Made by a program: the position numbers and the translations under genes. This document shows positions 26,933-58,391 of a stretch of 64,000 bases of DNA, one piece after another. The notes beneath the pieces were generated by a model. The model saw only the letters and a program-made list of their open reading frames with translations. It did not search any database and was not told the origin of the DNA. This DNA comes from Siphonodentalium dalli (lineage: Eukaryota; Mollusca; Scaphopoda; Gadilida; Siphonodentaliidae): the NCBI GenBank assembly GCA_032622095.1, contig CP136067.1, forward strand, positions 132,249,990 through 132,313,989. Direction: 5' to 3'. Position 1 is the stretch's first letter. Each line of letters opens with the position of its first letter.

Positions 26933-27325
26933 CCCTTTACCCAACAGAAGGGCCCTGTGCCAATGCATTCTCTTATATATGCGAGTCGACCATAGGTCGC
27001 CTCGCATATATAAGAGAATGCATTGGCTTAACACATTACAAATTATAAAATTGTTAAAGAATGTAAGAAAAAATGGTAAAAAGTGTTAAAAAAAGGATTA
27101 TTTTTAGGCCAATGCATTCTCTTATATATGCGAGGCGACCTATGGTCGACTCGCATATATAAGAGAATGCATTGGCACAGGGTATAACTGTAACTATCAC
27201 AATGTGGTCAAGGAGCCGGTTCCAATGATATCCATATTTGTATGGTTCTATTGAGACAGACCGAAGATATTTTAGGCTGTTGAAGATTTATTTGGCCGGT
27301 TTTGGCCGGTTTGTTGGGTAAAGGG
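26933..27325. mobile_element. piggyBac-like TTAA MITE, family 1, copy 1
   Basis: TTAA flanks both ends (26929-26932, 27326-27329). The inverted ends are CCCTTTACCCAACA and TGTTGGGTAAAGGG. TTAA duplications with CCC termini are the hallmark of piggyBac. The 393-bp body has no gene. It carries the 67-bp palindrome twice, inverted relative to each other (26960-27026 and 27109-27175), separated by an AT-rich spacer. A subterminal GGCCGGTTTTGGCCGGTTTG lies on one side only. Confidence 0.85.
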
Positions 27326-27329
27326 TTAA

Positions 27330-28380
27330 ACAATGCCAATATGAGCTTATTTCGCTCATTACAATAATCCCAGAACATGCTGACCAAATATACTGTATGT
27401 TGTAAATCCTCCACAGTATAATGCGATGGAACTTATCGTACCATTTTATTTGACATTGGACAGCGATATTCTCAAAATATCCCAGCAAACCAAAACAACC
27501 TCATGTGAGATAACACTATATGTATGTTGGGCCAAGATCCAATGTTATCAAGCTCAAATTGACGTATGTAAATGTATTCTTCAGTTAGAACCAGAGATAA
27601 AATTCAATGTTAACAAACTCTGAAAGTCCAAAAATAGCTAGAGTTATTATAAACCACGATTTCACCTAAATCAGTAGTTTGCTACAGTGCAATATAAAAC
27701 TGCTGCCAACTATGAACACATCATTGAACCAATCTGCATATATAATTTTCAGATTGTTATAAATGAAATAATTACATACCTCCGTGCTCAACGCAGAACA
27801 TGGTCAACATCATACGGAACAGCATCACCACATGACTTTGCACAAAGAACTCCATCGGAACCTAAAGTAGTGTTTTTGCGAATGTCCAACACAAAACCGG
27901 ATACGATACGAATCACTAAAAGTAGATAAGATCGCACATATACTGAATCAAACACGCGGCTTAACTGGCTGAGGCGCTAGTGATTTTTGCGTATCATTCA
28001 AGGTGAACCTACGTATGGGCATGGACAGCGGAACTTGGTAGGCGGGGTTTCCTTTGGGTGCGTGATCGATACCAGCTCCTTGAATGTGTCAATTTACTTA
28101 ACGATCACCTCTTTATACACTGTAAGAATTGTGAAAATTAACGATACGTCTTGTTTGGTCCGGTAAACATTAATATTGAGCATCCTACCCAAGGATCGCC
28201 TGATTTGATAAATTGTATGGTATTTTGATAATACTGGAGACAACTTCGGATATTCGTTTAATTTGTAATTGCATCAAATCTTCCATTGATAATATGTTAC
28301 CACAACACTATCCGGATAAAGTTACCTCTATCTTTTAGGTTGATAATAAACGTTCTTTATTTCTAATTATTAGTGCCTAG
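27330..28380. other. No recognisable feature
   Basis: Only short frames without family resemblance were found. Confidence 0.4.
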
Positions 28381-29110
28381 CTATCCCGTGATATTCCCCT
28401 GGTCATGTGACCCATCTGTACTAATTTCCCAAACACATCGATAAGGAACAATCTTTATTGCCCATATATTAGTCAGTGTTAAAGTCATCTTATTCCATCT
28501 GTGCCTATCCCATGATAATCCCCTGGTCAGGTGACCATTGTGTACCAGTTTTTGTACATATAGTCTAAGCTGATAAGGAACGCTCTTTATTGCTGATATA
28601 TTATAATACAATTATTTTATGTTCCCCTTTTATTTTTTATTAGAGCCCCTTTAAGCCATGTGAGGTAAACGGCACCTATCACATGACACTAATCGGGCCA
28701 ATTTACCCATGTGAATCAATTTTCAACGACCAGATTCAAACCATTTTGGTATATAACGTTAATTAAATTAATTTTAATTATTTTTGTATTAATATTTACA
28801 GACACCTGGTATCAACGGCACAAATCCCATGATACCCTCGTGTCAATTGAGACATGTGTACAAAGTTTCCGTTTATTATTATAGATAAATAAATAAATAT
28901 TAAAATCAGCTATGTATAGAAACCGAAAGTACATTCTGAGAATAGAACCAGTTTTCTATGAACTCGAAACGTTCCTAGCAGGTCGACGTCAAACGAACCA
29001 GAATGACTTACGATCATATAAATTGTCGTTTTACATTTCCCCTTGAAGACATCTGATGTCAACCACACCTATCCCGTGACACTCCCGGGTCAATTGACCC
29101 ATGTGTACAA
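28381..29110. repeat. Degenerate tandem repeat (CTATCCCGTGATA unit)
   Basis: Five diverged units, near 28380, 28500, 28670, 28820 and 29070, share TATCCC(A/G)TGA, then CCTGGTCA-TGACCCATGTGTAC. Some also share GATAAGGAACGCTCTTTATT. Unit spacing varies from 120 to 250 bp. Confidence 0.55.
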
Positions 29111-29637
29111 ATGTCTAGCTCCGAGGGTCCAGTCGTGTGGTCGCCCATAGCCGGACAAACAAAATTTTATTTAATAGTATATATGAGATTTGTGTTTTTT
29201 GATTGCCCAAATATAATGTAACCATGCAGGTTCTCGTTGGCCGAGAAATTCTTTTGGCCAATGTTTTTTTGACCATTTCTGAATTTGTTTGGCCATTGTT
29301 AAGAAAGTTTGACAACATTGAATAACCAAAATATGGGATCGTGAAAACAGAATCTGAATAAAAATATAAAGAATCACGCACTGTTATAACATAATTGAAT
29401 TTGCTATTTGGACAATGAAATTAAGCACGGATGGGAGTCGCTTAAACAGAAATAGGTTTAGTCGGCAACGTATAACAAAATGGTAAATTAACAGTACCAT
29501 AAGACGAAGCAGTCTCATTCCTCTCAACGCGGTGGGCTTGTTTTAGAGCGAGAAATCGCGGTGAATCGCCGACATCCGTTTTTACGCCGCGATTTGAAAC
29601 GACTGCGATTAGCAGTCATTCAGAAAGTGGCTTATAT
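29111..29637. other. No recognisable feature
   Basis: Nothing supported as a gene or element. Confidence 0.4.
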
Positions 29638-29786
29638 AAGGATTAACTGTCATGTGGACTGTTTTTATGGAGATGTAACGGTGAGGTAAGTGGACATAAC
29701 TTGTGTAAAACCCGAACATACAAGTTATGACCACTTACCTCACCGTTAAATCTCCATAAAAATAGTCCACATGACAGTTAATCCTT
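29638..29786. mobile_element. Hairpin MITE, copy 1
   Basis: A near-perfect stem of about 70 bp runs from AAGGATTAACTGTCATGTGG to its complement ending AATCCTT. TATA-rich flanks suggest a TA-type target. There is no coding capacity. A longer second copy lies at 30141. Confidence 0.75.
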
Positions 29787-30140
29787 ATATTTATATACAT
29801 TTAGCGAGAAAGTCACTTTTGTAAATATATTTAAATCGAAAAGTGTATCGTGACAAGATCAGCCCAAAATACCCAATAGCACCCTTGCCAAAAGTTAATA
29901 GGAACAATTTATCTTCATATTGAAACCCGATGATGTATTAAGTCAATCCTGCGCGAGTCCAAATGCGCCCAAAACATTACGCGTTCGTATTTCCAAACCT
30001 AATGACGTATCGATGGTGTTGTTAGCTTGGTGTTATGAGGCGTTACGCATTCACCGAGAAATAACTGCAACTAGCCACGTGGGCGACGACCAATCATAAT
30101 GCTGGATTTAGTGATGACAACACTTAGTGTGTAAATATAT

Positions 30141-30297
30141 AAGGATTAACTGTCATGTGGACTGTTTTTATGGAGATGTAACGGTGAGGTAAGTGGACAT
30201 AACTTGTGTAAAACCCGAAGGGTTTTACATACAAGTTATGTCCACTTACCTCACCGTTACATCTCCATAAAAATAGTCCACATGACAGTTAATCCTT
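30141..30297. mobile_element. Hairpin MITE, copy 2
   Basis: The arms are the same as in copy 1, with a fuller loop side (AAAACCCGAAGGGTTTT), making an almost unbroken 78-bp stem. It was copied with the 503-bp tandem unit. Confidence 0.8.
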
Positions 30298-30652
30298 ATA
30301 TTTATATACATTTAGCGAAAAAGCCGCTTTTGTAAATATATTTAAATCGAAAAGTGTATCGTGACAAGATCAGCCCAAAATACCCAATAGCACCCTTGGC
30401 AAAAGTTAATAGGAACAATTTCTCTTCCTGTTGAAACCCGATGATGTATTAAGTCAATCCTGCGCGGGTCAAAATGCGCCCAAAGCATTACGCGTTCGTC
30501 TTTCCAAACCTAATGACGTATCGATGTTGTTATTAGCTTGGTGTTATGAGGCGTTACGCATTCACCGAGAAATAACTGCAACTAGCCACGTGGGCGCCGA
30601 CCAATCAGAATGCTGGATTTAGTGATGACAACACTTAGTGTGTAAATATATA

Positions 30653-31400
30653 ATTATCGCGGAAATATTCGCCACAAAACGCCGGAACCCTGTAACAACG
30701 CACGAATGGTGTCATATGTCTGTGTGTTCGCGGTTGTTCTGCCCGACCCCTGGACGATTTTAACCAAATTTGGTATGGTGAATCGGGCTACGACGGCAAT
30801 ATTACAAAAAATTATTTAAACAAAAATAAAAAATTAATGTGTTAAATTTAGCACAGTTCAATCTAAACAAAATTAAATACAAAAAGATCAAGATATTTTC
30901 GGAATTTAAGATAGGCCTATACCTAGGGCACCTTGCTAACGTTAACAACATCTATATTACTTTTATTTTAACTTCTTGTGTATAAATAATATAGCATGTT
31001 TTGATCGAGAAGTGTTAGATGGAAGACAATATTCTGTTTGATAATTATGGATGGGTCCATTACTTTGCAATTTAATGCATTACCATTACAATTACTTGAC
31101 ATATGTTTGCACTACCATTACCATTACTTCCAAAATGAAATGTAATACATTTAAAAAGTAATGCATTATATTTACATTACTTCTAGTTTGGTTGGATACA
31201 TTATGACAATCTGAATCGTTATGCGAACTTTATTGTCCGAATCGGCAACTCTGGTTTAGACTAGGTTTTATTCTAGACCAGGTTTAACTCTAGTAAAATT
31301 TAATGTAGTAAAACTTGGTTTTACGGGAGTAAAACTAGGTTGTATTGTAGTTAAACCCAGTTTTACTGATAAACTCAGTCTTAGTTTGTGGAATTCGATC
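30653..31400. other. Intergenic; ATTAC block and GGTTTTAC repeats
   Basis: An ATTAC/GTAAT-rich block lies at 31060-31190, again like a hAT end. The words CTAGGTTTTA and TAGTAAAAC recur between 31230 and 31390 in both orientations. There is no gene. Confidence 0.4.
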
Positions 31401-32701
31401 TCAATTAAAGCTAGATTTTATTGGCGTGGTAAAGTTATGATAATATCACTAATTATTTGTGGTGAATTGTCTATATAATCATCAGGAGACGGTTAGCTAT
31501 ATCTGATTTATACGTACCATACGTCTCTTCTCGAAAATATATCTTTAAATATACTTTGAAAATACATAAAAGTAAACCACCCTGCCCCAGGTTTTACTAA
31601 AACCTAGTTCGGTGGGTGTTATTATTTAGTCGGACTTTTTCGCCCAATATGTATGATATCTTATTACGCCCATAGTATGGGTGTTTACTGCTTCGCTTTT
31701 CTAACCGTGCCATTGGGGCGATGGGGATAACTGGCAGGACAACACATTTCGGGTTTCACGCGATGCGAGTTATTTTAGGAAATTGTATTAAGGCTGATCT
31801 GGCCGTGTCAATGGAGCTATGGAGAGATGGAGATATCTCGCAGGAAAACACATTTCTGGTTTTCGCGGATGTATCTTCGAGGATGCCTCATTGTTGCAGA
31901 ATGTAACTTGTATGGCCGCGTTAATTGTCTTCGATATTTAGGTATGAATAATGGCTGGGCCACTCTTGAATATTTTATTGCGTGCATCAGTCTACCCAGG
32001 GACATGGTGCCTGGGGATGGGGGTGGGTGTCGGTGTCCCACCCCAACTTTGGTCAAAATATTTAACATTTAGAAATATTATACCTGACACATCAGTAGTT
32101 GGAAATTTCTCGCCAAAAATAGGTTAAAAGTGTTCTCGTAGTTTAGCCAGTCAAAACCTGCGATTCAATTGAAAATACAAATAATAAATTTAAAGGTCAA
32201 GGGGGCAATTGGTTTTCTGCAAACTTTGGATTTTGTTTTGGTTCAAGGGGGGGGGGGTGAAGTTATAAATTCCAAGGCATGTTTTTGTTGCTTACGCACA
32301 CATTGTCGCATCGCATGCGCAAATGTGAGATAATATGAATGTAATCATTGGATTGCAGAAAAGGTATTCTGATCTAATAACTATATTCAGCCTATGGTCT
32401 TGGTAACGTATCGTTCGCGAACATAGAAGAACACCGATTCGAATATAACCTCTGTTATGGACATACTCTATGACCACAGTGCCAGTACTTATGCAAATTT
32501 CGCACCTTCGTCGCCATTACAGAAGAATCGGTCACCGAGCGTGTCTCAAAATCATCGCGACGGTAATTCCTTCAGCTCAACCCCGCGCTATCAACATTGC
32601 CCGCGAAGGGTGCTACAATTCAGCTCTCATACCGAAACGCGAGCAGCGAGCATCATTTGTCTCTCAACTCAATCCCAGTCTCGGACCACGATTCGTATGC
32701 A
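31401..32701. other. No recognisable feature
   Basis: A small hairpin lies at 31578-31616 (CCACC and AGGTTTTAC against AAAACCT and GGTGG). A nine-base G run lies near 32250. No gene was recognised. Confidence 0.4.
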
Positions 32702-32704
32702 TTA

Positions 32705-33496
32705 AGCCCCGGTTCCATATCCCCGATTTCCCACCCCGAATGTTCCCGAATGACTCCCGAATCACAATTTTGCAAAAATCGTGGAGTAAGTTCGGGACGA
32801 GTCGGGACAGTGAATTTTTACCCCCGAACATGATCGGGGATATCGGTGCTATCGGGGTCGATTCGGGACAATTCTGGACTCGCTCCCGACAGTTTTGAAA
32901 TGTTCAAAACTATCGGGAACCAAGCCGAATCGCTCCCGATTTGTAAATCGTCGGGAGAAATTCGGGAGCAATTCGGCACCTATTCGGGAGTAGTCGGCAG
33001 TATTCGGCAATATTCGGGTGGATATTCTGGAGTAGTCGGCAGTATTCGGTAGGTTATTCCCGAAATCGCCATGTATGGCTGCTTTTATACTGAGATCCGG
33101 TGTATCTGCAAAATTCGGTATCGATTCGGGACGTTCGGCAGCAATTGAATACCAATTCGGTATCTATTCGGCATCAATTCGGTACCAGTTCGGCATTGAT
33201 TCGGGGTATTCGGCAACAATTCGGTGTAAGTCGGTAGTAATCTGGGCAATTTGGCAGCCACTCGCACGAAAGTTCGGGATAATTCTTGATCATTCGGGAA
33301 GATATTCGGAAGCATTCTGGAATATTCGGCAATGTTCGGGACGATTAAATTTTGTCATAATTCGGCATCAGTTCGGCGGCTTTTTGGAATAAAACTCGTC
33401 CAGAATTCTCTCGAATGCTGCCGATTTGGTCTGGTCCCGAATTTGTGCCGAATATACTAATTCGGGACAGAAAATCGGGAATATGGAACCGGGGCT
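32705..33496. mobile_element. Harbinger-type element filled with ATTCGG repeats
   Basis: Inverted ends AGCCCCGGTTCCATATCCCC and its near complement (ATATGGAACCGGGGCT) are flanked by TTA (32702-32704, 33497-33499). TWA duplications are typical of PIF/Harbinger, so this is the best guess. The 792-bp interior is a degenerate array of TTCGGGA/ATTCGGCA words. Around 33155-33225 ATTCGG recurs at exact 11-bp steps. Several short frames cross it, but they are by-products of the repeat. Confidence 0.7.
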
Positions 33497-33499
33497 TTA

Positions 33500-34186
33500 G
33501 GCAACTCTGCGAACAGTGGATACCAACATCGCATGACCATTACTAATTCACAAGAACGTCGGAGCTTCTATCTGGGAGGCGTTGCATCATACGACACCAG
33601 GGGTCGTATTCACCGAGTGGGTTTATTTTATAAACCAGGTAGTTTATTTGGTAGCGGCTAAACGCACAAGGTGTCTTCGGTATAGCGTTAACGACTCACT
33701 CTATCGATGATGTGATTGACCCAATCTATCAGATTTGCCATTTGTATTTGTCAATGTATTATGACTAAATCTCGAACACTAACCGGCCACAATTAATGAC
33801 ACAAGTAATTTCACATTCTGATCCATATTAAGCTTCCTCTCATAGCGCCAAAACATGCTCTATTTTGTGATTGTATTATTGTGTGAAATTCTTAATTATG
33901 TTAGCAGTAAAGGGTAAAACATAGTAATATTTTAAACTTCTCAAAAATTAGAATAATCCACTGTTTTGTCTTCTTTTAATAGTTGTTCAGATTCTATATA
34001 CAATGAAGATGAGAATTTGTGAAATTCAAGATTTTTCACAACATAATTTATTAGTTGAAAACCTCTTTCAATTTTGCACGGATATATGCAAAACGTGCGC
34101 CTGACCCTTCGTGTAACGATTACTCTTGGTTTATGCTTCGTGTGTGTAAGTTAATTGATCTTTTATAATTATCAAATAATGATACA
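33500..34186. other. No recognisable feature
   Basis: AT-rich. A possible transposon-end word GGGGTCGTATTCACCGAG lies at 33600 without a partner. Confidence 0.4.
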
Positions 34187-34190
34187 TTAA

Positions 34191-34582
34191 CCCTTTACCC
34201 AACAGAACGGCCCTGTGCCAATGCATTCTCTTATATATGCGAGTCGACCATAGGTCGCCTCGCATATATAAGAGAATGCATTGGCTTAATACATTAAAAA
34301 TTATAAAATTGTTAAAGAATGTAAGAAAAAATGGTAAAAAGTGTTAAAAAAAGATTTTTTTTAGGCCAATGCATTCTCTTATATATGCGAGGCGACCTAT
34401 GGTCGACTCGCATATATAAGAGAATGCATTGGCACAGGGCATAACTGTAACTATCACAATGTGGTCAAGGAGCCGGTTCCAATGATATCCATATTTGTAT
34501 GGTTCTATTGAGACAGTCCGAAGATATTTTAGGCTGTTGAAGCTTTATTTGGCCGGTTTTGGCCGGTTTGTTGGGTAAAGGG
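34191..34582. mobile_element. piggyBac-like TTAA MITE, family 1, copy 2
   Basis: Flanked by TTAA (34187-34190, 34583-34586), with the same ends and orientation as the copy at 26933. The palindrome cassettes are at 34218-34284 and 34366-34432. It differs from copy 1 by only a few bases. Confidence 0.85.
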
Positions 34583-34739
34583 TTAATGTTATCTAATATA
34601 TATCTCGAATACTGTATGTATATGTACGACCATTACGGAGAGGAATCGAGTGTGCCTAGCACAGTGTCATCCTCGGACATGACACTATATGAGAGGAGCG
34701 GAGATACACAGAAATTCAATCAGTACGTTTTTCGATGAG

Positions 34740-34954
34740 ATATATCTGTGATTATTTGCTCCTTAAATCGTTTTCAGGGCGCCGGTCGTGGCACGGATGG
34801 TCGATTCATGATGTTCACGCCTCACGATATACTGGGAATGGAGATGGTGAAACGAGGTCCGACGGATAAAAAAAGTCGGATTCGAACCCCCCGACCGTGT
34901 CGAAGTTAATTTCAGAGGTCGGCACACTAACCAACTGAGGTATCCACGTGTCCC
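34740..34954 (-). mobile_element. tRNA-derived SINE
   Basis: On the reverse strand the sequence begins GGGACACGTGGATACCTCAG, then TTGGTTAGTGTGCC, an A-box-like promoter. GGGTTCGAATCC at about 34889-34878 is a strong B box. The spacing is tRNA-like, but the cloverleaf is not intact and the anticodon region is long and altered. A non-tRNA body follows to about 34740. The 3' end is not sharply defined. Confidence 0.65.
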
Positions 34955-35699
34955 GAGCTTCATGCAACAACATGAACATTTGTCTAAATTAAATATACCG
35001 AGCGTATAAAAATATACAAACTTATGTGACCGCACGCATTATATATGTATGTATAATTTTGTATTCAAATGCAATTGCATGTAGTCGTTCATACTGCAAC
35101 CTCACCCCATACATATTTATTATACCGTCGCTGTTACATTTTTTTGTCAGAAACATCTTTCTATATATGAGAATCGATGAGTAGTCAGACCATGATGACA
35201 TTGCATCCGCCTCATGACAGTGTCCCACGAAGTTCTATTTATCATGAAAAACGAATGACTGATGCTGCGCAAATTAAGCAATCTTTTGCTCAAATCTTTA
35301 CAAAATCCAGACTACTCGCTCCAGTGAGAAGTTCAATACACATATACATGGCCAAATCAGTACGCAAGGCCTGGAGTTGTGTTCATAACACATGATGCCG
35401 TTCACCTAACTCGCTTACTGCAGTACAGTTGTCCACTGGCTACATTAGCATACTGCCGTACACCAGAATTCTTTTCCAAGAAAAGTGCCTTATTGATACC
35501 AAATTCGTTATATATAACGCAGATCAAACCATCATCTGTATAGTAGACCCATTTTTTGTTAAATGTATGCGCCATTATTTTCGCTCATATTTTAACAGAA
35601 TTGTGTGATAACTTTTCGTGCGAGTATTCGCCTAAATTGTCAATTGTCGAATAAACCATGTGCACATTGAATATGATAGACCTTGTTCAAGGGTCACAA
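34955..35699. other. No recognisable feature
   Basis: Short frames only; no supported exon or repeat. Confidence 0.4.
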
Positions 35700-36955: not shown

Positions 36956-36959
36956 TTAA

Positions 36960-37203
36960 CCCTTCCATGACTGGTGCTTCTTGAAATTTTGCGAAAACCC
37001 TGTGCCAATGCATTTTCTTATATATGCTAGTCTCCCATGTGGAGCATATATAAGAGAATGCATTGGCCTAGCAATATTTACCTTATTCTTGTAAGCCAGT
37101 ATCTTATATATACAAGGCTCCCTGTGGAGACTCGCATATATAAGAGAATGCACTGGCACAAGATATTCAATTCTGTAGCAACGTAGCTCCCGTCATTAAA
37201 GGG
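36960..37203. mobile_element. piggyBac-like TTAA MITE, family 2
   Basis: TTAA lies at 36956-36959 and 37204-37207. The ends are CCCTTCCATGAC and GTCATTAAAGGG, similar only in the first bases to family 1. The 244-bp body still carries two diverged copies of the 67-bp palindrome (37005-37066, 37096-37156). It also shares the CCCTGTG lead-in. It lies only 56 bp from a family 1 copy. Confidence 0.75.
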
Positions 37204-37259
37204 TTAATAGAGATGAGGCAACCACCTCTACCCCTTAAAATTAGGAATCCGGTATTTAA

Positions 37260-37691
37260 CCCTTTACCCAACAAACCGGCCAAAAACGCCCAAATAAAGC
37301 TTCAACAGCCTAAAATATCTTCGGTCTGTCTCAATAACACCATACAAATATGGATATCATTGGAACCGGTTCATCGACCACATTGTGATGGTTACAGTTA
37401 TGCCCTGTGCCAATGCATTCCCTTATATATGCGAGTCGACCATAGGTCGCCTCGCATATATAAAAGAATGCATTGGCACTTACCATTTTTTCTTACATTC
37501 TTTAACAATTTTATATTTTTTTCTGACATTGTTTAACAATTTTTATAATATTTTTCTACATTCTTTGACAATTTTATCATTTTTAATATGTGTTAAGCCA
37601 ATGCATTCTCTTATATATGCGAGGCGACCTATGGTCGACTCGCATATATAAGAGAATGCATTGGCACAGGGCCGTTCTGTTGGGTAAAGGG
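37260..37691. mobile_element. piggyBac-like TTAA MITE, family 1, copy 3 (reversed)
   Basis: TTAA lies at 37256-37259 and 37692-37695. The orientation is opposite to copies 1 and 2. Cassettes lie at 37410-37476 and 37598-37664. The spacer has expanded through repeated TTCTTTAACAATTTTAT words, making the element 432 bp. Confidence 0.85.
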
Positions 37692-37900
37692 TTAAAGAAG
37701 AGGACATATAATCGAGGATCCAGTTTAAGAATATAACTATAAGGAATAATAATATATATATTTATTTCAGACATATATGTCCATATTATATAGTTGTGTT
37801 TACATAAATTATTAAGGTATATACACCATGTCAATTATAGTGTTAACATGGCATATTGTTGCAAACATTTACTACAGTGGACCTACAGGTATATATACAA

Positions 37901-41819: not shown

Positions 41820-41820
<1 letters not shown>

Positions 41821-41870: not shown

Positions 41871-44040
41871 AATAAATTGAAAGCATGGCTTAGAAAAACA
41901 TTATTGTATTGTAACTAGGCCTTTCACAGCTACTGCTGATCTTCAGGTTACACAATGTATAATATCATAATGTATAATGAATATTAACGTCACATCCGAA
42001 TTTTGGTTTCATTATGACGTCACTTCCCTGGATATTTATTCCAGTGATGGTTTTAAGTTTTTTTCTGAATTTAGTTTCGGACGAAGTTTTTTTATCAACA
42101 TTGTTTCCTTCCGAATTCTTTTCAATGGGTCCATTGATAGCATTTTGTATAATGGAAACACTGTGAATGAGCAACCGCCACAAATTTCCAGATGTTCGCT
42201 GAGATCAATTTGTCTCAGCTCTGGTTGTTTGATTTGTTGGCGGTGTATTCTCATGCGCTCACACACAGTGTTGCCCGTCTGTCCCACATAAAACTCATGG
42301 CATCCAGAACATATAATAATATAGATTAAGTTCCGTGATTTGCAGTCCATATCCGCATTGGGTTGAACTACTGTTCCATTTTTAAACTTGAGTTGAGTAC
42401 TAGTAACTATGTTTTTGCATGTACCGCATCTGGAATCTCTACACGTCCGAATTATGTATGTTGTTTCGTTGCTGGTATCGAAACGGGCTCTCGTCAGTAT
42501 TTTCTTCAAATTTGGTGGTTGTCGCTTACTTTGAAGTATATTATCCTCACTGACGAGATATTTCATTTTAGGACTCTTGTGTAGTATTGGTAGCAGTGTT
42601 TTTTGCGGATTGAGTTACATTAGGGTGGCGTGGGTTGTGAGTTGTTACGAGTGGAATGAGATCGGACTCGGCTTGTCTCTCTTTATCTTTTCTCAATTCG
42701 GATTTAGGTGTTTTTAAAGCTTCGTCGATTCCACTTGTTATTAGCTTGCCTGGGTAATGTTGGTCTTGTAAGACAGAGCGCAGTTCTTGTAGCCGAACAT
42801 CTCTAATATCAACATCATCTACAATTGTACAGATACGTCTGGCTAGACAATACGGTATACGTCTCTTCGTATGGGAAGGATGGCAGGAATTAAAATCCAA
42901 GTATTGATGAGTATCTGTACTTTTATAAAATATATCGGTGGTGATGTGTTGTCCAGATTTATTAATTAGGACATCCAAAAATGATAGCTGGTTTCTGTTT
43001 TGTTCCATGGTGAATTTAATTGTCGGATCTAAAGAATTGAGTATTTCGTGAAATGCTGTGAGGTCGGCTAATGGTGACTGCCAAATGATAAAACAGTCAT
43101 CGATGTACGGTTTCCATGCACCTCTGATGTAAGTGCTTTCATTGTTCGGGATTCTGTCCGACAGAATTCCATGAAGTTTTTCTTCTAGATATCCCATGGT
43201 TAAATTAGCATATGTAGGGGCAACTTTTGTGCCCATTGCTGTTCCTATGGTTTGTTTATAATAGTGTCCATCGAAGAAAAAAACATTGCACTCTAGAACA
43301 ATTTGCAGTCCTTCCATGATGAAGCATTTCGGGAATCGTTTATCGAGGATTTCGCTGCACTTAGTTGTCCAATACTCTACAGATTTCAGTCCTAGCTCAT
43401 GATGTATACTACTGTATAAACTCGTGACATCGAAGCTGGCTAGTACTGATTCTGGGTCCACAGTTCTTGAAAGATTTCGAACAAATTCAATATCGTCCCT
43501 CAAGTAACTTGGGATATTAGGTAGTATCGGTTTCAGAATAAGATCTAGAAAGTTACTCAAACGATGGGTCGGACATATAGGTCCGGCAACTATAGGACGC
43601 AGCTTGAGATCACTAGGTTTGAGTATTTCGATTATCTCCGAATTTTGTTGTTCAATGACTTTCTGGATCTCCACTGATTTGTGAATCTTGGGTGGACCAT
43701 ATAAATTGCTACATCGTGATTCGAATATCGTAAGATAGTCCTTCTCTTTGTCTGTTAAACAGTTAGAATGTCGTTTGACGAGTTTTCGTATTTTATTCAA
43801 AATACCTTTGTTCTGATCGTCTTCTACTTCCACGTATGACGAATTGTTTAACAGTAATTTTTCTGCCATTGACTTGTAGTGATCACTGTCCATTACAACA
43901 ACTGCTCCTCCTTTATCTGCTTCCTTGATAATAATTGATTTATCATTTTGAAGTCGTGTTAAAGCGTCTTGTTCTGACTTGGTAGTGTTGTGACGGATTT
44001 TTGCTGATGATGACGTATTCAAAGAGATTCTGGACAAAGT
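41870..44040 (-). mobile_element. Penelope-like element, 5'-truncated, with GIY-YIG endonuclease
   Basis: A 489-residue reverse frame (44037-42568) holds the Penelope-type reverse transcriptase: LRPIVAGPICPTHRLSNFLD, VLASFDVTSLYSSI, IGTAMGTKVAPTYANL, and the catalytic YIDDCFI. A 176-residue frame (42566-42036) continues with a Cys-rich linker (CRDSRCGTCKN) and a GIY-YIG nuclease (LIYIIICSGCHEFYVGQTG, MRIHRQQI). This order is that of endonuclease-bearing Penelope elements. The N-terminal region is missing. There is about one break in the visible coding part. The 3' UTR leads to the TA microsatellite. Confidence 0.9.
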
Positions 44041-44077
44041 GTATATATATTCGTCCAGATGATTATCCCTACCTTTA

Positions 44078-44423
44078 CGTGGTGCTCATATTTTCTGAAC
44101 ACCACTCCAATTCAATTCAATTTATTGTTTTAAACTCATCGTCTAATGTGACATTTATGAGTGTTCATTTGCAATTACAAAATAACATAAATACATACAT
44201 ATCAAATACATATCAAATATGGGGAATACACAGAAGAGAGTATTTACCAATAAAAAATATGGATCCAGGGGGTGTACCCGTACATGTGTATGAGAGCTTT
44301 CATCCAGATGGATTATACACCACTCCGATGGATAATATTATAACTGAATGGGAGAATCCATTCAGTACAGAAAGTGTTAATGTGATGAACTACGTGTCCC
44401 ATAATCGCAAACGCAATGATTAA
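44078..44423 (+). pseudogene. Unknown coding scrap next to the Penelope element
   Basis: The frame ends DPGGVPVHVYESFHPDGLY, then TTPMDNIITEWENPFSTES, and a stop at the edge of a MITE. Part of it (about 44300-44378) is repeated at 40830-40895. The opening ATATTTTCTGAACACC is also repeated at 40797. No family was recognised. Confidence 0.4.
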
Positions 44424-47759: not shown

Positions 47760-48781
47760 CTAGCAGATTAGTCCGCCACTGGCGGGATTGGTCCCATGGC
47801 TTTGGTCGATCCATTAAATTTTGTTTTTTAAGGTAACCCCGTGCAGGCATATCATATAACCCGACAAAAATATTCCCGTCCCGAGTTGACTATACATAAC
47901 AAATTTCACGTCGATGTCACCACTGACGACCGATATATCGCCCAAGGTCATTTGTGGGTACCCGTTTCAAGGTCAAGGTCACATCAGGCGGACAAACTGA
48001 CCCGACGAAAATCTCCCCCGTCCCTTGGAAGCCCTAAGTACGAAATTGGATATCCCCAGTTTCCAAAAGCAAAAGATATCAGGCAGAACTATTCAAATAT
48101 GGACCCTGGTGCCCAATATGCAGCAGCTCAGAAAACACTCACAGGGCCCTAACATTTATTAACATAGGATTTCCCATTCAAATCGATTTATGTCGATAAA
48201 AGTTTAATTTTTTCTAAATTTTAAGCTGAGACTTCGTGTGTCTGCGTGTAATACTTATATATTCTTAAAATGACAGAGTCCAACACGTAATTATGTGTTA
48301 GATGGAATAAATTAAATATTTTCGATGCTAAATTTTAACATAGGATTTCCCATTCAAATCGATTTATGTCGATAAAACTCTTATATTTCAAAATGTTAAG
48401 CTGAGACATCGTGTGTCTGCGTGTAATACTTATATATTCTTAAAATGACAGAGTCCAATACGTAACTATGTTTTAGATGGAAGAACTTTAATGTTTTCGA
48501 TGCTAAATTTCGAGCGATAACGTTTCGTTGATATTGTAAACAAACGCTCTTTAATTGCGACACGTCATATACAAACGCTCATTAATTATCACGCGATTAA
48601 CCCATCAATCCCCATTGCGGTGGCAGTTGAAGGGTGAAGGAGTGGTCGCACGAATGGTCCGATGACACTGCCCGTGGCTTTTTACCCTTATATAGGAAGT
48701 TGGGCTCAATCGGTGGAGCCGTTTTCGAGTCTATAAAGGACACACATATATATATACGGAAGTCTCAAAATATACAGTAGA
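47760..48781 (-). mobile_element. Helitron-like element with satellite core
   Basis: The reverse strand starts TCTACTGTATATTTTGAG after an A. It shares GACTCGAAAACGGC with the Helitron array at 37.9-40.2 kb. It ends with a hairpin (CCCGCCAGTGGCGGA) 12 bp before CTAG at 47760. The base after CTAG is A, not the expected T, which weakens the 3' boundary. Inside are two 175-bp satellite units (48165-48515) identical in kind to those at 5.4-5.9 kb, and GGTCAAGGTCAC words. Confidence 0.6.
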
Positions 48782-48783
48782 TA

Positions 48784-49289: not shown

Positions 49290-49293
49290 TTAA

Positions 49294-49685
49294 CCCTTTA
49301 CCCAACAAACCGGCCAAAACCGGCCAAATAAAGCTTCAACAGCCTAAAATATCTTCGGTCTGTCTCAATAGAACCATACAAATATGGATATCATTGGAAC
49401 CGGCTCCTTGACCACATTGTGATAGTTACAGTTATGCCCTGTGCCAATGCATTCTCTTATATATGCGAGTCGACCATAGGTCGCCTCGCATATATAAGAG
49501 AATGCATTGGCCTAAAATAAATCTTTTTTTAACACCTTTTACCATTTTTTCTTACATTCTTTAACAATTTTATAATTTTTAATGTGTTAAGCCAATGCAT
49601 TCTCTTATATATGCGAGGCGACCTATGGTCGACTCGCATATATAAGAGAATGCATTGGCACATGGCCCTTCTGTTGGGTAAAGGG
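49294..49685. mobile_element. piggyBac-like TTAA MITE, family 1, copy 4 (reversed)
   Basis: TTAA lies at 49290-49293 and 49686-49689. Cassettes lie at 49444-49510 and 49592-49658. The 392-bp element is nearly identical to copies 1 and 2 in reverse orientation. Confidence 0.85.
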
Positions 49686-49833
49686 TTAAGCATTGTGTGC
49701 ATGGAAAATGATCGAGCAACTGTCACAAACAGTAATGTGACTACATGTATCAATGGCTAGAAACTAACGGCCATCAGTGCATCAAGCTACTCAGATAATT
49801 ATTTGCATGTCTATTAACTCAGATGATCTGTTA

Positions 49834-50679
49834 GGGTGGATACACACATGCATGTAATCTCTGTAATTATCGTGTATTTGGCGCTTTACATGGATCATAC
49901 AGACCATATAATATGTGTCCGCTGACAACCCAATCATTGCGGCTATGTTTGACCACAGTGAGTCAAGCTCTGAACGTACATAGAGCCGTTGACTGAAAGA
50001 AGTCGCCAGGCCGCTTAAAATAATTGTTTGCGCGATAACCAAAATGATGGACTTTCTGTTTAAACCATTGTCAGTCTTCTCTTGATTTGTATACAGGTGA
50101 TGGCCCCAGGATTTCCCCAACGCAGGGGCTATAATCCCCAACATGGGGGGGGGGGCAATATTATCAGGATTTCCTGACGCAGAAGCTATATGATCCCCGA
50201 CTTGGAGCTATATGTGATCCCGAAAGCTACCTCGCGGGGTGGCTAACTCTGAGCTATTTAAGTAAAACATATTATATTGTACCTTCTTGCCCAGATTATT
50301 CCGACCGATACATTCAACTAAGTCCCTTAGCGATTTGAAGCTTTCGAAAACTCACGTCAAGCAAGCATCATGGTCGAAAATGTTCTATATCAAGCCTGTA
50401 TACGCCAGGCGTGTCGCTTCTGGTGTTTGTGCATTAATAAAATACCAGATATCACACAGACTTGACTAATTTCCACATCCATAAGAGAAGACATGTTTTA
50501 GACTGGCCTTAAATGTCCCGATAGCAGAGAGTTTGACTTCGCTTATGACTACTCACTTGTCTGGCCTGTTAACAATGAACCGCTCGCGCGCATGTGATCA
50601 ATGTTGTCAATTATTGATGTGGCCATGTAAAATACATGTATTTTACATACAGAGATTACATGCATGTGTGTATCCACCC
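49834..50679. mobile_element. PIF/Harbinger-type element, copy 1
   Basis: The terminal repeats are GGGTGGATACACACATGCAT and its complement, extending to about 33 bp. They are flanked by TTA on both sides (49831-49833, 50680-50682). A 3-bp TWA duplication indicates PIF/Harbinger. The 846-bp interior has no transposase. It carries a segment near 50096-50150 (CCAGGATTTCCCCAACGCAG) that resembles the left end of the hAT element at 17026. Confidence 0.8.
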
Positions 50680-50682
50680 TTA

Positions 50683-51306
50683 CTCCCACAACACATACAG
50701 TATCCATGATCCATGTCTGTTATATATAGTGACTGCATGCTTGTCATGTAGTTTAACATAAGTTGTTCCAGTAGACTAATGCAAGTGGTATGGAATAGTG
50801 CTAGATGGTGGGCTGGTTGATAGACCGATCAGGAAATAGTTAGAAATTATGGAATTGTGTGTATCCTGCACACTTATTATTATTAACTTTTTTTTTAAAG
50901 CGTAAATTCCATATATAAATATGCTCTAAACGCTGCACAAACACACCTAAACGTACACGAATATGAACAAACACATCATCTTAGTTATAGTTATATAATA
51001 GACATACTTACGAAAAAACAAGCAATTTGATTTAGTAGAATAACACACATACAGACTTAGAGCTTGTCATTTACATGTATATGTAGTGGTGCGAGTACAA
51101 TATACTATTTGCTGACATCAATTGCATAATCAATAGTGCTGTGTACTTTATAATAATATTTCCTAAATAAGTGTGTCTTGTGTCTGCCTTTGAACTCAAT
51201 GATGCAATTTATAGAACTCTACACTGTTGATCAATAGTTTTGTTTATCACAAGTTTGTGACTGCAATATAATTTATTGAAAGAAAAAAAAATACTATTTT
51301 CCTGTA
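50683..51306. other. No recognisable feature
   Basis: AT-rich spacer between two Harbinger-type copies. Confidence 0.4.
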
Positions 51307-51309
51307 TAA

Positions 51310-52687
51310 GGGTGGATACACACATGCATGTAATCTCTGTAAATATCGTGTATTTGGAGTTTTACATGGATCATACACACCGTGTAATATGTGTCCGCTG
51401 ACAACCCAATCATTGCGACTGTGTTTGACCACAGTGAGTTAAACTCTGAACCGCTGAAGAGCCGTTGACTGAATGGGACGAAGTCTTCAGGCCGCTTAAA
51501 ATAATTATTCGCGCGATAACTGAAATGGTCGACGTTCTGTTTAAATCATTGTCAGTATTCTATTGATGTTAATACCAGTGATGGCCTCTTCCACAACGCA
51601 GGGGGCTATGACCCCCAACATACACGGGGAGCTATATTATCCCAGAAGCTACCGAATTCACCATTGCATATTTCCTCGACGGGGGGGGGGGGGGGGGGTG
51701 CACACAGCACCCTGAGTCCTGACACCCTGCTTTATAAATATCGAAGTCATGTCTGTCGTGTCTGTTTTCTACGAGTGATTAATCTAATATGCAGCAATTT
51801 ATGCTATTCATATAATTATGAACATATTATACAGCTTTAAATTTGAATGCATGGTGTTGCTGTTTGTCTTCATTCGGCGAAAGGGTTGCCTAGCTACGAG
51901 TTCCCAACTACGTCACCTTTCATCTCTTGTGTTATACAGTTATACATGTATACGCAAAATTTACAACTATGGAATATTTAAGTAAAACATTATATTGTAA
52001 TTCTTGCCCAGATAATCCCGGCTGATACATTCAATTAACTCCCTTAGTTATTGGAAGCTTTCGAGAACCAGCCCCTCCCCCAATCATGGATTATGGTCGA
52101 AAATGTTATAATTCAAGCTTGTGACAGGTAGGAGCTTGTTCAACCTTTGGCTTGAGAAACATATATATAAATGGGGGGGGGGGGGGTGTCACTCTTTTTA
52201 ATTTCAACGCTGTACCTGCATTATTTTTTGGCGCTATAATGAATATTTGCAATCCCAATTGAATTAATGTTATCACATGAGCTCGCTCTCAAATTATCAG
52301 AGAAATCTCAACAAGCCGGTATCGTCCTATAAAAGAATTCTGCATATTTTATTTCTGTTTTGGATGACCCTGTTTCCAAGAAATGACAGAAACAAATCAA
52401 GTATAAAATCGACCGGCTCTAATCCACTTTTCGAAATGAATAATAACTCGTGAAAAACAGCAACATATATCAGACAAGAATTACTCATTTCGGCATCCAT
52501 GAAAGAAGACATGTTTATGACTGGCCTGAAATTTCTTGATGGCAGTTTGTTTGATAATGGCTTATAACTACTCACTGGTGAAATTGACCTCTCGCGCGCA
52601 GTTGATTAATTTGGTCAATTATTCGTGTGGCCATGTAAAATACATGTATTTTACATACAGACATTACATGCATGTGTGTATCCACCC
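51310..52687. mobile_element. PIF/Harbinger-type element, copy 2
   Basis: The termini are the same as in copy 1. TAA lies outside each end (51307-51309, 52688-52690). It is 1378 bp and non-coding. It contains a long G run at 51681 followed by a CACCCTGAGTCCTGACACCCTG-like segment resembling the right end of a hAT element. The inner end holds the palindrome TAAAATACATGTATTTTA. Confidence 0.85.
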
Positions 52688-52690
52688 TAA

Positions 52691-54054
52691 GGGTGGATAC
52701 ACACATGCATGTAATCTCTGTAAATATCGTGTATTTAGCGTTTTACATGGATCATACACACCGTGTAATATGTGTCCGCTGACAACCCAATCATTTCGAC
52801 TGTGTTTAACCACAGTGAGTTAAACTCTGAACCGCTGAAGAGCCGTTGACTGGGACAAAGTAGTCAGGCCGCTTAAAATAATTATTCGCGCGATAACTCA
52901 AATGGTCGACGCTCTGTTTAAATCATTGTCAGTCTTCTATTGATGTTAATACCAGTGATGGCATCTTCCCCAACGCAGGGGGCTATGACCCACAACATGC
53001 ACGGGGAGCTATATTATCCCAGAAGCTACCGAATTCACCGAATTGCATATTTCCTCGACCGGGGGGGGGGGGGTCTGTGCATGCAGCACCCTGAGTCCTG
53101 ACACCCTGCTTTATGAATATCGTAGTCATGTCTGTCGTGTCTGTTTTCTACGAGTGATTAATCTAATATGCAGCAATTTATGCTATTCATATAATTATGA
53201 ACATATTACAGTTTTAAATTTGAATGCATGGTGTTGCTGTTTGTCTTCATTCGGCGAAAGGGTTGCCTAGCTACGAGTTCCCAACTACGTCACCTTTCCT
53301 CTCTTGTGTTATAAATGTATTCGCAAAATTTACAACTATGGATATTTAAGTAAAACATTATATTGTAATACTTGCCCAGATAATCCCGGCTGATACATTC
53401 AATTAACTCCCTTAGTTATTGGAAGCTTTCGAGAACCAGCCCCCCCCCCAATCATGGATTATTGTCGAAAATGTTATAATTCAAGCTTGTGACAGTTAGG
53501 AGCTTGTTCAACCTTTGGCTTGAGAAACATATATATAAATGGGGGGGGGGGAGTGTCACTCTTTTTAACTTCAACGCTGTACCTGCATTATTTTTTGGCG
53601 CTATAATGAATATTTACAGTCCCAATTGAATTAATGTTATCACATGAGCTCGCTCTCAAATTATCAGAGAAATCTCAACAAGCCGGTATCATCCTATAAA
53701 AGAATTCTGCATAATTTATTTTTGTTTTGGATGACCCTGTTTCCAAGAAATGACAGAAACACATCAAGTATAAAATCGACCGGCTCTAATCCACTTTTCG
53801 AAATGAATTATAACTCGTGAAAAACAGCAACATATATCAGACAAGAATTACTCATTTCGGCATCCATGAAAGAAGACATGTTTATGACTGGCCTGAAAGT
53901 TCTTGATGGCAGTTTGTTTGATAATGGCTTATAACTACTCACTGGTGAAATTGACCTCTCGCGCGCAGGTGATTAATTTGGTCAATTATTGGTGTGGCCA
54001 TGTAAAATACATGTATTTTACATACAGACATTACATGCATGTGTGTATCCACCC
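52691..54054. mobile_element. PIF/Harbinger-type element, copy 3, abutting copy 2
   Basis: It starts immediately after the TAA that ends copy 2 and finishes at 54054, followed by TAA (54055-54057). It is 1364 bp and almost identical to copy 2 in the same orientation. The two elements share one TAA at 52688-52690. Confidence 0.85.
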
Positions 54055-54057
54055 TAA

Positions 54058-54423
54058 CCATAAATGATACTTACATTGACATGTTAATTGAGAAGATCCA
54101 AATATACATAACTCATGATGTAGAGCAATTAACGCCCTCCTTATTTTAATTGTTCCGGGGGAGCTGGGGCATCGGGGAAGGGCTTAAAACTTGCAAAAAC
54201 GTGCGCCCTAATCACGTTTGTATATTATATTATAGATATCAAGTTAATTTTCAAGTCAAGCTGGTGCAATTGCTCTCCTTAAAAACCAAGGCTAAAATCA
54301 GTCAGGCTTCGTTTAAGCATATTTTATATTGTAGCGAGTAACTACCAGTACATGAGATCTGAGCACAAGTTTATTTCGTCTCAAATGTAGTCAGTCAATA
54401 GTATTTATCTCATCTGTTGTCCT
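54058..54423. other. No recognisable feature
   Basis: Short spacer without a gene. Confidence 0.4.
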
Positions 54424-54427
54424 TTAA

Positions 54428-54873
54428 CCCTTTCAGTGCCAGGTCCGATTTTTGTATCAACCCATATACCCTGTGCCAATGCATTCTCTTATATATGCGA
54501 GTCGACCATAGGTCGCCTCGCATATATAAGAGAATGCATTGGCCCAACAATTTTTCATCATTTGTTATTATATTTTTTACAATTTTAATAATCTTTTCTT
54601 ATATTCTTTACAGACTTATTTTGTAGGTTTAGTGCCAGGGAATCTTACGTTTTTCATGGGCATCAAAATTATTACTATGAATACTTGGTGATAGTTTTGA
54701 GTTATATCATGCCCCTAAGGTTTTATCCAGTTTGTTTTAAAATTTGCTATAGCATGCTTAAGCATACCCAAAACAAATTCAACCCAAAAAAATCTAAAAG
54801 AAAAAAAATGTTAAGGCCGATTTTACAGACCGTAAATTAGGGCCGATGAGATCGGCCCCTGGCACTGAAAGGG
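54428..54873. mobile_element. piggyBac-like TTAA MITE, family 3
   Basis: TTAA lies at 54424-54427 and 54874-54877. The perfect 16-bp ends CCCTTTCAGTGCCAGG and CCTGGCACTGAAAGGG differ from families 1 and 2 after CCCTT(T). It nevertheless has one full 67-bp palindrome cassette (54476-54542) with the same CCCTGTG lead-in, followed by a TTATATTCTTTACA spacer word. Confidence 0.85.
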
Positions 54874-54877
54874 TTAA

Positions 54878-55702
54878 AGGGAAAACACAGTAACTGTCGA
54901 TGTATGGGCTATCAAGTGTTTCTTTCTATATCGCGACAGCGCCAGTTCGCATGATAATAATATATTGTGATTTGTAATTTGCCGTACCGTGACTATCATG
55001 TAACGTTTAGATGTTTGTGTGCGGATGCTCTTAATTACCATACAAATTTCCACCCGCTCTTCGTTGGTACAATCTCTTCATGAACACATTGATGCCTCAA
55101 GAAAATTTAAGAGGGTGTATTAAATAAGAGTCGTTTCAGATATCACGATAATATTTTACCGTGCAGGAACGCACTTTTATTAAACATTACTCCGTTGCGC
55201 GTTGAAATGTTGAACTCATCGTCGACAATCCACCAAGGCCATTGTATAGCGAACGAATTCAGCGAGATACTTTGTCCAAAATGATTACGCATTATAAATG
55301 AAACTGATAAAATTCTAACAATGATATACTATATCAAGAGGAAAAAATGGATAAAATTCCTGCGTAATTTTCCGGTGTCGGATATACACGGTGATAACGT
55401 GATGTAGAAAGGATATACCACACTCGTTAACAGAACAATTTGTTTCGAGATAGCTATTTCGCAAATAAAATTTACGGATTTATTTACTTTGGTATGTATA
55501 ACATAATTGATCAGTAGTATGATATTATCATGTGCTCTGTTGCTCACCACAATTATTTAAATGATGGTGCGGGAAATCGTTTAACGAGTTCTTGTCAGGA
55601 TCAGCGAAAGTCCCCCTTATCTTTTCGCATGTAGAACCTGGCACCTAAATCATCTGGAGTACACGATGGACTCGTTCCTAGCGCTCAGCTTCCACTATAC
55701 GA
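54878..55702. other. No recognisable feature
   Basis: No gene or repeat was recognised. Confidence 0.4.
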
Positions 55703-55705
55703 TAA

Positions 55706-56840
55706 GGGTCGTTCCACACCGGGCGCGAGCGAGCGATTATAACGGCCGTTTTCTGACGTCCGTAGCAATTAAAAGCGCGCGATTTTATGTTCACACCACA
55801 AGCGACTGAAACGCTTCGTCGCGCGCGCAGGCGTTTGTAATATTTCCACTGTTTTCCTCTCTAGATGTGCCCTGTCCACTGCGAGTTTTTGTTACCTGTT
55901 TGTGGTGTCGGGTGAAATGGTCTCTTAGATTCTTCCACTTGTCTTTACATTGTTGGGCTGTTGAGAAAATAAACAAAAATATGCATTATTTTCAACCATC
56001 ATCACATGTACTGTTTTTCATGACCTATTTAGTGATATCAATAATTCATTTTATGACAACACTAAACGAGTTCTTGATATCACAAAATAGGTAATAAATA
56101 TGAAACTGCGCCACATAGTCTCAAAATTATAACTGAAAATGTAAAAAATAGTTGCAGGCATATGTAATGTAATTGAACATTTGAATATAATATGCTCATT
56201 ATATACATACATGGCATTTTCAAACTCATGTCATTGTCAACTACAATATGTCAAGTGGAATGTGTTAAATGGACATTCTGAATCTCATAGCAATTGCGCT
56301 TAATTGAATTTCATTCTATAATTCCAGTTTGTGAGTTTTTTTTTATCGGGGAGGGGTGGCAGTTCATTCTAATGTGGGCAAAGTGACTTCACAAGCTTGG
56401 TTTGCCTATTTGGAATGGAATTGTGATTTAAAAAACTAACCCGACGATTCTGTTACTCAGGCAATCTCTTCCCATGCAATCTCTCTTCTCTTTATTCTTA
56501 TACTCTTGAGATTTTGTGTCATACAGACACACATGGCGTTGTACTTCGATAATTAGCCTCTCGCTAAAGTCCTCCATTATCGTGGCGACAAATCAGTGTG
56601 CCGTCCTCAAATAGAAAAAATACGGTCGGATAAACACATTACCTGAGAGCGGTCCAATTATCTCGCTGGTTTGCAATAAAGCGATAATTCGGCGAAGCAT
56701 AAAATCACTGCTATAATCGCCTCGTGGTCAGCGAGTCGGTCGCTTGCGGTGTGAACATAAAAATCGCGCGCTTTGAACTGCTACGGACGTCAGAAAACGG
56801 CCGTTATAATCGCTCGCTCGCGCCCGGTGTCGAACGACCT
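55706..56840. mobile_element. Harbinger remnant with MADF gene piece
   Basis: Long inverted ends of about 100 bp open GGGTCGTTCCACACCGGGCG and contain ACGGCCGTTTTCTGACGTCC. TAA lies on both sides (55703-55705, 56841-56843). Long TIRs, a TWA duplication and a MADF/Myb-like protein fit Harbinger, whose second gene encodes such a DNA-binding protein. The transposase is missing, so the 1135-bp element is an internal-deletion derivative. Confidence 0.75.
55791..56577 (-). pseudogene. MADF-domain protein of a Harbinger element (fragment, two exons)
   Basis: On the reverse strand an ATG at 56577 opens MEDFSERLIIEVQRHVCLYD, then TKSQEYKNKEKR, the N-terminal half of a MADF (Myb/SANT-like) domain. A GT donor follows at 56456. 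A good acceptor (TTTTCTCAACAG) ends at 55958. The next exon reads QQCKDKWKNLRDHFTRHHKQV, the C-terminal half. The central Trp motif is out of frame (AWEEIA is readable one frame over), so the copy is damaged. The frame then runs into the terminal repeat. It would bind element ends and assist the transposase. Confidence 0.7.
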
Positions 56841-56843
56841 TAA

Positions 56844-57994
56844 GACGCAACGTTCCGACATCATGTAGCGATTAGTAAGGGCCGACACAGCTTTTCTGGG
56901 GATTACGTCGTTGATATATATATAGCGTCGCCAGAATTCCCCCAGGTAACCAGCACCAGATAGCAGTATAGCTATTACGGCATTAGCTCATAACGTCGTA
57001 TCCGAAAATAGTAGGGTGGTAGCAGACTAGGGTTCATGATCGAATCACCTCTGCACTGTGTCGGCACTCTAGCCCGTGCATTGACGTCATATGACGTCCG
57101 ATCCTGGTTGGCTACTGAAGTATTCCTATTGTATGAACTAGTGTACACGGGGTCGATCAAAACTACAACACACTTGATGTTTTAGGCCCAATGTTATGAG
57201 AACAAAACCGTTATCTCCGACAACATCGTGTTGTAAATTTATAATTTATACCTGGATGTCTTTTTTGACAACCTGGTATCAAATCTCATTTTACCTCCGA
57301 ATTTGCCAGAGATAATTTAATACTTTGAATGCTATTTCCAGTGACATAGAATGCACATATCTTAATAACAATCTAGCAAACATTAAATTGACATTGACTC
57401 AGATGATATATTTGCCCAGGAATTCATCGTATGTGCACTAAGTCTTCTTATCTAGGTGTGAACGGAGATATGATTAGTGCAAACCACTCTAAATCGAATA
57501 AGTCAAAAACTCAGAGCAAACAACAGCGACAACCACTCGACAGCATCCACGATTTGTTTTGTGCACAGCGCGCATGTACACAAAACTATCTCTCGAAAGT
57601 TTAAAAATATAATCCGATATGAAGGGCGCACTGAGGTGGCATGTTACTCTCTTTGACATGTTCCCCAATTATTCTAGATCATCGTGACTTTGATAAGTTT
57701 CAATCCGCTGTGACGAGTCTGTACGGTAAATGCGAGTCGGTGAATAGGAGGTGATATGATCCGGTCCTTTTAGAAATCCTAAAAACGGATCTCTGTTGTG
57801 GTAAGTTCGTAAAAACTTACCTATATCTTTCTCGAGTCTATGATGCAGTGTAATATCTAACACATTTAGCGGTTATTTCTAGATAACCTAAATTTCTTGA
57901 CTGCTTCAAGCCTCAAAAATGACAGCAGCATCGAATGATGTGATCACGCTGTGGTTGGTAGTGTTGTAAAGTTGTTCATGTTATTAATGTTCTA
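56844..57994. other. No firmly recognisable feature
   Basis: A 64-residue reverse frame at 57669-57863 has a balanced composition but no family match or convincing splice acceptor. Confidence 0.4.
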
Positions 57995-57998
57995 TTAA

Positions 57999-58391
57999 CC
58001 CTTTACCCAACAGAAGGGCCCTGTGCCAATGCATTCTCTTATATATGCGAGTCGACCATAGGTCGCCTCGCATATATAAGATAATGCATTGGCTTTACAC
58101 ATTAAAAATTATAAAATTGTTAAAGAATGTAAGAAAAAATGGTAAAAAGTGTTAAAAAAAATATTTGTTTTAGGCCAATGCATTCTCTTATATATGCGAG
58201 GCGACCTATGGTCGACTCGCATATATAAGAGAATGCATTGGCACAGGGCATAACTGTAACTATCACAATATGGTCAAGGAGCCGGTTCCAATGATATCCA
58301 TATTTGTATGGTTCTGTTGAGACAAACCGAAGATATTTTAGGCTGTTGAAGCTTTATTTGGCCGGTTTTGGCCGGTTTGTTGGGTAAAGGG
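57999..58391. mobile_element. piggyBac-like TTAA MITE, family 1, copy 5
   Basis: TTAA lies at 57995-57998 and 58392-58395. Cassettes lie at 58026-58092 and 58175-58241. 393 bp, same orientation as copies 1 and 2. Confidence 0.85.

Follow-up and report, generated by a model that had tools for sequence, protein, structure and literature searches.

A long palindromic cassette in TTAA elements with three kinds of ends in Siphonodentalium dalli, a candidate transposase-recognition site of piggyBac-type MITEs

MITEs of the piggyBac type are known to carry a terminal CC(C/T)T motif (PMC2872659). In Acropora corals, a group of TTAA MITE families known as CMITEs has been described, which differ in their TIRs but have a conserved 75-nt internal region in common (Wang et al. 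2010, PMC2872659). The authors speculated that this internal region helps transposition and maybe cross-mobilisation, and did not settle where it came from (PMC2872659). In addition, palindromic sites inside the TIRs have been reported for the piggyBac family. PGBD3 binds MER85 mainly via a 16-bp palindrome located 3 bp inside the 5' TIR; replacement of this palindrome resulted in the loss of 80% of the binding and replacement of the TIR in the loss of 60%, while in vivo MER85 copies without the palindrome were never bound and several copies without the 5' or 3' TIR were bound (PMC3459987). A similar palindrome is present 3 and 31 bp inside the TIRs of piggyBac from Trichoplusia ni (PMC3459987). 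In piggyBac and piggyBat, the palindrome is held by the C-terminal domains of the transposase dimer, and the activity of piggyBat is lowered by a third site (PMC11707139). As described in these reports, the recognition palindromes of the family are approximately 14-19 bp long (PMC3459987, PMC11707139).

Here, a 64-kb stretch of DNA from the scaphopod Siphonodentalium dalli (the window) was analysed. Seven TTAA-bounded elements in this window bear a long palindromic cassette, and these elements belong to three families (F1, F2 and F3). F1 is represented by five copies: F1a (26929..27329, plus strand, 401 bp from TTAA to TTAA, 18-nt identical ends including TTAA), F1b (34187..34586, plus strand, 400 bp), F1c (37256..37695, minus strand, 440 bp), F1d (49290..49689, minus strand, 400 bp) and F1e (57995..58395, plus strand, 401 bp). 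F1c is the most divergent of these and has a longer spacer, which contains approximately three copies of a 31-bp tandem unit (37486-37584) that probably account for its greater length. F2 (36956..37207, plus strand, 252 bp) and F3 (54424..54877, plus strand, 454 bp) are each represented by one element. All seven elements start with TTAACCCTT and finish with AAGGGTTAA; TTAA is present at both ends in each of them, and inside it the CC(C/T)T motif is found as CCCTT at the start and AAGGG at the finish. The identical part of the TIR, including TTAA, is at least 18 nt long in all five F1 copies and 20 nt long in F3, and the TTAA-CCCTT ends of F2 are identical for 9 nt only and imperfect beyond, against a criterion of approximately 13 bp or more for MITEs of the piggyBac superfamily. 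Between the families, the ends agree over 9-11 nt only, TTAA included. The 15-nt flanks of the seven elements are mutually different by eye, which is expected of separate insertions. No open reading frame of at least 150 aa starting with ATG, GTG or TTG is present inside the elements, and a Pfam scan of 18 of the 52 stop-to-stop open reading frames of at least 100 aa in the window revealed no transposase. Based on the TTAA, the CCCT termini and the lack of a detected transposase, the seven elements fit non-autonomous piggyBac-type (TTAA) MITEs.

The cassette of F1 and F3 is a 69-nt near-palindrome (33 + 3 + 33 nt) with a CCCTGTG lead-in ahead of it. Thirteen cassettes are present: the five F1 elements and F2 have two each, in mutually inverted orientation, and F3, which has no right-hand cassette, has a single one. 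In F1a, lead-in and cassette are located at 26953..27027 (left, plus strand) and, as an inverted copy, at 27108..27182 (right, minus strand). The left and right cassettes are found at 34211..34285 (plus) and 34365..34439 (minus) in F1b, at 37597..37671 (minus) and 37403..37477 (plus, the element being on the minus strand) in F1c, at 49591..49665 (minus) and 49437..49511 (plus) in F1d, and at 58019..58093 (plus) and 58174..58248 (minus) in F1e. The single cassette of F3 is located at 54469..54543 (plus). Eight of these 11 copies are identical across the 75 nt of lead-in and cassette, and the other three contain four changes in total: two in the right cassette of F1c, one in the lead-in of the left cassette of F1d and one in the inner arm of the left cassette of F1e. 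F3 matches the F1 consensus at every one of these 75 positions. Measured from the outer base of TTAA, the lead-in starts after 24 nt in the left cassette and after 147 nt in the right cassette of all five F1 copies; in F2 these distances are 42 and 44 nt, and in F3 the distance is 45 nt. A search with the 20-nt arm resulted in 25 matches in the window at up to three mismatches and in none in 100 shuffles.

The two F2 cassettes, at 36998..37067 (left, plus strand) and 37095..37163 (right, minus strand), have the arms of F1 with few changes, the inner arm being shortened in the left cassette and decayed in the right one. Their centre is CTCC..GGAG in both, compared with CGACC..GGTCG in F1, and is thus changed on both sides (by eye), and the lead-in of the right cassette reads TCTTGTG. 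Across the three families, the best-kept parts are the outer arm and the greater part of the lead-in, but not the centre. An earlier note on this DNA had placed the palindrome in seven TTAA elements, with terminal repeats that differ between the three families past the first CCCTT and with a conserved cassette and CCCTGTG lead-in, strongly so in F1 and F3. The seven elements, the difference between the ends and the conservation in F1 and F3 are borne out, whereas the number of cassettes is 13 and not seven, and the cassettes of F2 are damaged and have a different centre.

Compared with the known systems, the coral CMITEs show the same kind of pattern, although sequence, length and palindromic form are different here (PMC2872659). 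The likeness consists of TTAA flanks, CC(C/T)T ends and different TIRs combined with one internal region, which in the CMITEs is described as more conserved than the TIRs (PMC2872659). In contrast, CMITEs are approximately 100 bp long against 252-454 bp for the elements described here, which contain a long palindrome, twice and inverted in six of the seven elements, and the 75-nt CMITE region has another sequence (PMC2872659). A 25-nt part of the 60-nt CMITE consensus had no matches in the window at up to three mismatches (PMC2872659). The human MER85 and PGBD3 offer a second parallel: a TTAA MITE has a palindrome close behind the TIR, with a single palindrome in MER85 and three in PGBD3, and the palindrome is the main determinant of transposase binding; however, that palindrome is 16 bp long, has another sequence and is reported from one MITE family, while the cassette is 69 nt long and occurs with three kinds of ends (PMC3459987). 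Subterminal palindromes of the PGBD3/piggyBac type have their counterpart here in lead-ins located 24-147 nt inside the ends, with none on the right in F3. The palindromes of T. ni piggyBac are located at unequal distances from the ends, comparable to the asymmetric F1, and those of piggyBat from Myotis are present on one end only, comparable to F3, but these sites are short, differ in sequence and belong to autonomous elements (PMC11707139, PMC3459987). The earlier note knew of no named module of this kind; CMITEs (PMC2872659) and the palindromic sites of the piggyBac family (PMC3459987, PMC11707139) are precedents as far as these sources describe them, from which the sequence and anatomy of the cassette differ. 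No prior description of these particular elements was found in the literature searched, in which CMITEs, MER85/PGBD3 and piggyBat are closest, and a named Repbase entry may exist; five sequence strings from the window did not occur in that literature either. In viral contigs, a 26-mer and the degenerate 20-mer arm had no matches, and the 20-mer arm had none in prokaryote contigs, both of which say little about eukaryotes. A 16-mer of the centre was found in six viral contigs, none of which contained the second arm (by eye), and was taken as a chance match.

The palindrome is not fully symmetric. At one position, a T is present in the outer arm and a G in the inner arm, each read from its own strand, and this mismatch gives the palindrome a direction, which no copy seen here has reversed with respect to the lead-in. 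It is oriented in the same way in 12 of 12 testable cassettes (all ten of F1, that of F3 and the right one of F2), which represent fewer than 12 independent observations since the F1 copies are mutually related; in the left cassette of F2 the position has been lost. Five of the 13 cassettes were folded as single-stranded RNA. The two cassettes of F1a and that of F3 gave predicted energies of -55.5 (left), -55.7 (right) and -54.3 kcal/mol, with shuffle means of -15.4 to -16.4 kcal/mol. The F2 cassettes are predicted to fold more weakly, at -38.7 kcal/mol for the left and -22.9 kcal/mol for the right, and the F2 centre is paired in the right cassette and unpaired in the left one.

Within F1, the cassette changes clearly more slowly than the spacer, and a slower change than in the ends is only suggested. 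Over all five copies, polymorphic columns amount to 4 of 150 in the cassettes (2 of 75 in each), 15 of 163 in the ends (1 of 20 and 14 of 143) and 24 of 119 in the spacer, where the columns include an insertion found in F1c alone. In Fisher tests, this corresponds to p=0.018 for cassettes versus ends and p=3e-6 for cassettes versus spacer. Much of the polymorphism is supplied by F1c. When this copy is left out, changed cells number 2 of 600 in the cassettes, 6 of 572 in the right end (p=0.17) and 8 of 316 in the spacer (p=0.004). It may also be that an AT-rich spacer simply tolerates or gains more change, which counts against reading the difference as constraint on the cassette.

The similarity between F1 and F3 extends beyond the cassette. 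The sequence that follows the F3 cassette, an AT-rich spacer at 54546..54625 (plus strand), aligns with the F1 spacer read inward from the right cassette, and compared with F1c, 62 of 78 aligned positions are identical and 16 mismatched, with 6 gap positions. Of the 12,262 overlapping window-strand comparisons made outside F1, this alignment has the top score (34), and the highest-scoring place away from F3 reached 25.5. Dinucleotide-shuffled spacers matched the observed score in none of 500 cases for F1c and in one of 500 each for F1a and F1d, and in the opposite orientation no signal was found between these three spacers and F3 (280, 280 and 290 of 500 shuffles for F1c, F1a and F1d, respectively). 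Against F3, the right cassettes of F1 have 0 (F1a), 0 (F1b), 2 (F1c), 0 (F1d) and 0 (F1e) mismatches in 75 nt, while the corresponding spacers have 10/53, 9/57, 16/78, 8/49 and 7/49, with position-level homology that is approximate because the five spacers align in more than one register and F1c contains the 31-bp copies. The difference between cassette and spacer gives p=0.00009-0.0011 per F1 copy, the five copies not being independent, and p=0.0007 for F1c. Judged from these alignments, the unit common to F1 and F3 is lead-in, cassette and spacer, of which the cassette is much the most alike. Constraint on the cassette is most strongly supported by this contrast with the spacer, and the same comparison also shows that F1 and F3 have more in common than the cassette by itself. 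A TIR-like stretch inside F3, near 54624, was considered as a sign of composite origin and set aside, with 5 mismatches in 16 positions and 28 of 500 shuffles equal or better.

By analogy with the piggyBac family, we find it moderately probable that the cassette is a subterminal palindromic transposase-recognition site of piggyBac-type MITEs whose ends are free beyond CCCT. Six of the seven elements have one cassette close to either end, and the cassette faces inward from its CCCTGTG lead-in. A dimer of a piggyBac-like transposase, supplied from another locus, would bind to the palindrome and join the two ends, and cutting would occur at the CCCT tip at TTAA. Palindrome and terminal CCCT would be constrained and the remainder of the end would drift, so that families would come to differ in their ends while having the cassette in common. 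We infer the binding of a protein, its identity and selection as the cause of the conservation. The earlier note had proposed that selection maintains the cassette, a transposase site being one example, which fits its lower divergence relative to the spacer, while the contrast with the F1 ends is weak. The other proposal, that the cassette moves between elements, is weakened for the cassette alone since F1 and F3 also share the spacer and the direction is constant; with no flanking duplication in F3 (by eye) in addition, an independent mobile unit is not favoured. The length of 69 nt exceeds what a dimer should need and counts against a binding site, as does the missing right-hand cassette of F3. 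The extra length could possibly be explained if two dimers bind side by side or if a host protein binds as well. As F2 has another centre, recognition would have to rely on the arms.

The alternative that survives best, though we consider it rather unlikely, is common descent combined with capture, in which F3 is a chimera with an F1-like half (lead-in, cassette and spacer) joined to other TIRs by recombination or template switching, and in which the likeness is due to recency. The equal order and orientation of cassette and spacer in F1 and F3, the one-sided module of F3 and the different centre of F2, which looks like a separate branch, are in agreement with this. However, a recent neutral transfer predicts an equally similar spacer, and in each of the five F1 copies the spacer resembles F3 less than the cassette does, unless a donor of another spacer subtype, outside the window, were to remove this gap. 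Palindromes are hot spots of recombination and replication slippage. Gene conversion or hairpin-templated correction might therefore keep the cassettes alike without selection, as suggested by the similarity of the cassettes at both ends within a family and by the F2 centre, which differs from that of F1 on both sides at once (by eye; paired in the right cassette, not in the left); we regard this as improbable, given the private uncorrected changes in F1c (right), F1d (left) and F1e (left), the decayed F2 arms and the T/G mismatch, which correction is expected to remove and which persists in F1, in the right cassette of F2 and in F3. A role of the hairpin at the RNA level, such as giving rise to small RNAs, as the reason for its conservation is very improbable despite its very stable predicted fold (-55.5 kcal/mol for the left cassette of F1a against its own shuffle mean of -15.8 kcal/mol), as such folding is common to any long palindrome, no Rfam match was obtained at gathering thresholds and a hairpin RNA would not need to keep one orientation towards the ends of the element.

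Under the preferred reading of the cassette as a transposase-recognition site, the locus bears on the question left open in corals, since the kept region is here plainly palindromic, which is the form of site bound by piggyBac-family transposases. If this link holds, the conserved cores in such MITEs would be transposase-binding sites and the end sequence past CCCT would matter less than assumed. A more far-reaching version, which we put forward tentatively and consider doubtful, is that the cassette is an exchangeable module: one transposase would read the palindrome and not the TIR, and elements with different ends would be recruited by acquiring the cassette. If true, the binding site would be separate from the cleavage site in piggyBac-like elements, and this would account for CMITE-like groups generally.

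The remainder of the window contains few long open reading frames, many tandem repeats and retroelement pieces that we take to be of LINE type and Penelope type, at a GC content of 34-42% per 4 kb. Above the curated Pfam cut-offs, RVT_1 and zf-RVT (LINE) and GIY-YIG (Penelope-like) were detected, and below them Exo_endo_phos and the RVT_1 of the Penelope-like open reading frame; scans of the window for tRNAs and for Rfam families (at gathering thresholds) gave no matches. The LINE pieces (16261-17196, 18189-19745 and 20980-22413) contain duplicated segments, with an endonuclease-like part that occurs again after the reverse-transcriptase part within one open reading frame. The Penelope-like piece (42036-44085, minus strand) combines a reverse-transcriptase-like open reading frame, which scores below the Pfam cut-off, with a GIY-YIG domain located after it. 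Two arrays with a similar tandem unit of 175-176 bp are located approximately 42 kb apart (5401-5926 and 48159-48510), and arrays of a 20-bp unit with the palindrome GCGCTTAAGCGC are present at 24322-24496 and 25704-25865. A near-perfect palindrome with 33-nt arms and 1 nt between them is found at 52656-52722, part of which occurs again at 49833-49860 (by eye). Other TTAA-bounded sequences are also present. A related pair of cassette-free hairpins with ends TTAACTGTCATGTGGACT (29643-29781 and 30146-30292) is bounded by TTAA and sits within longer inverted repeats whose arms measure 71 and 85 nt, and a 477-bp stretch at 60343-60819 is bounded by TTAA and has ends TTAAAGGTACTCAACCCG, of which 18 nt, including TTAA, are identical.
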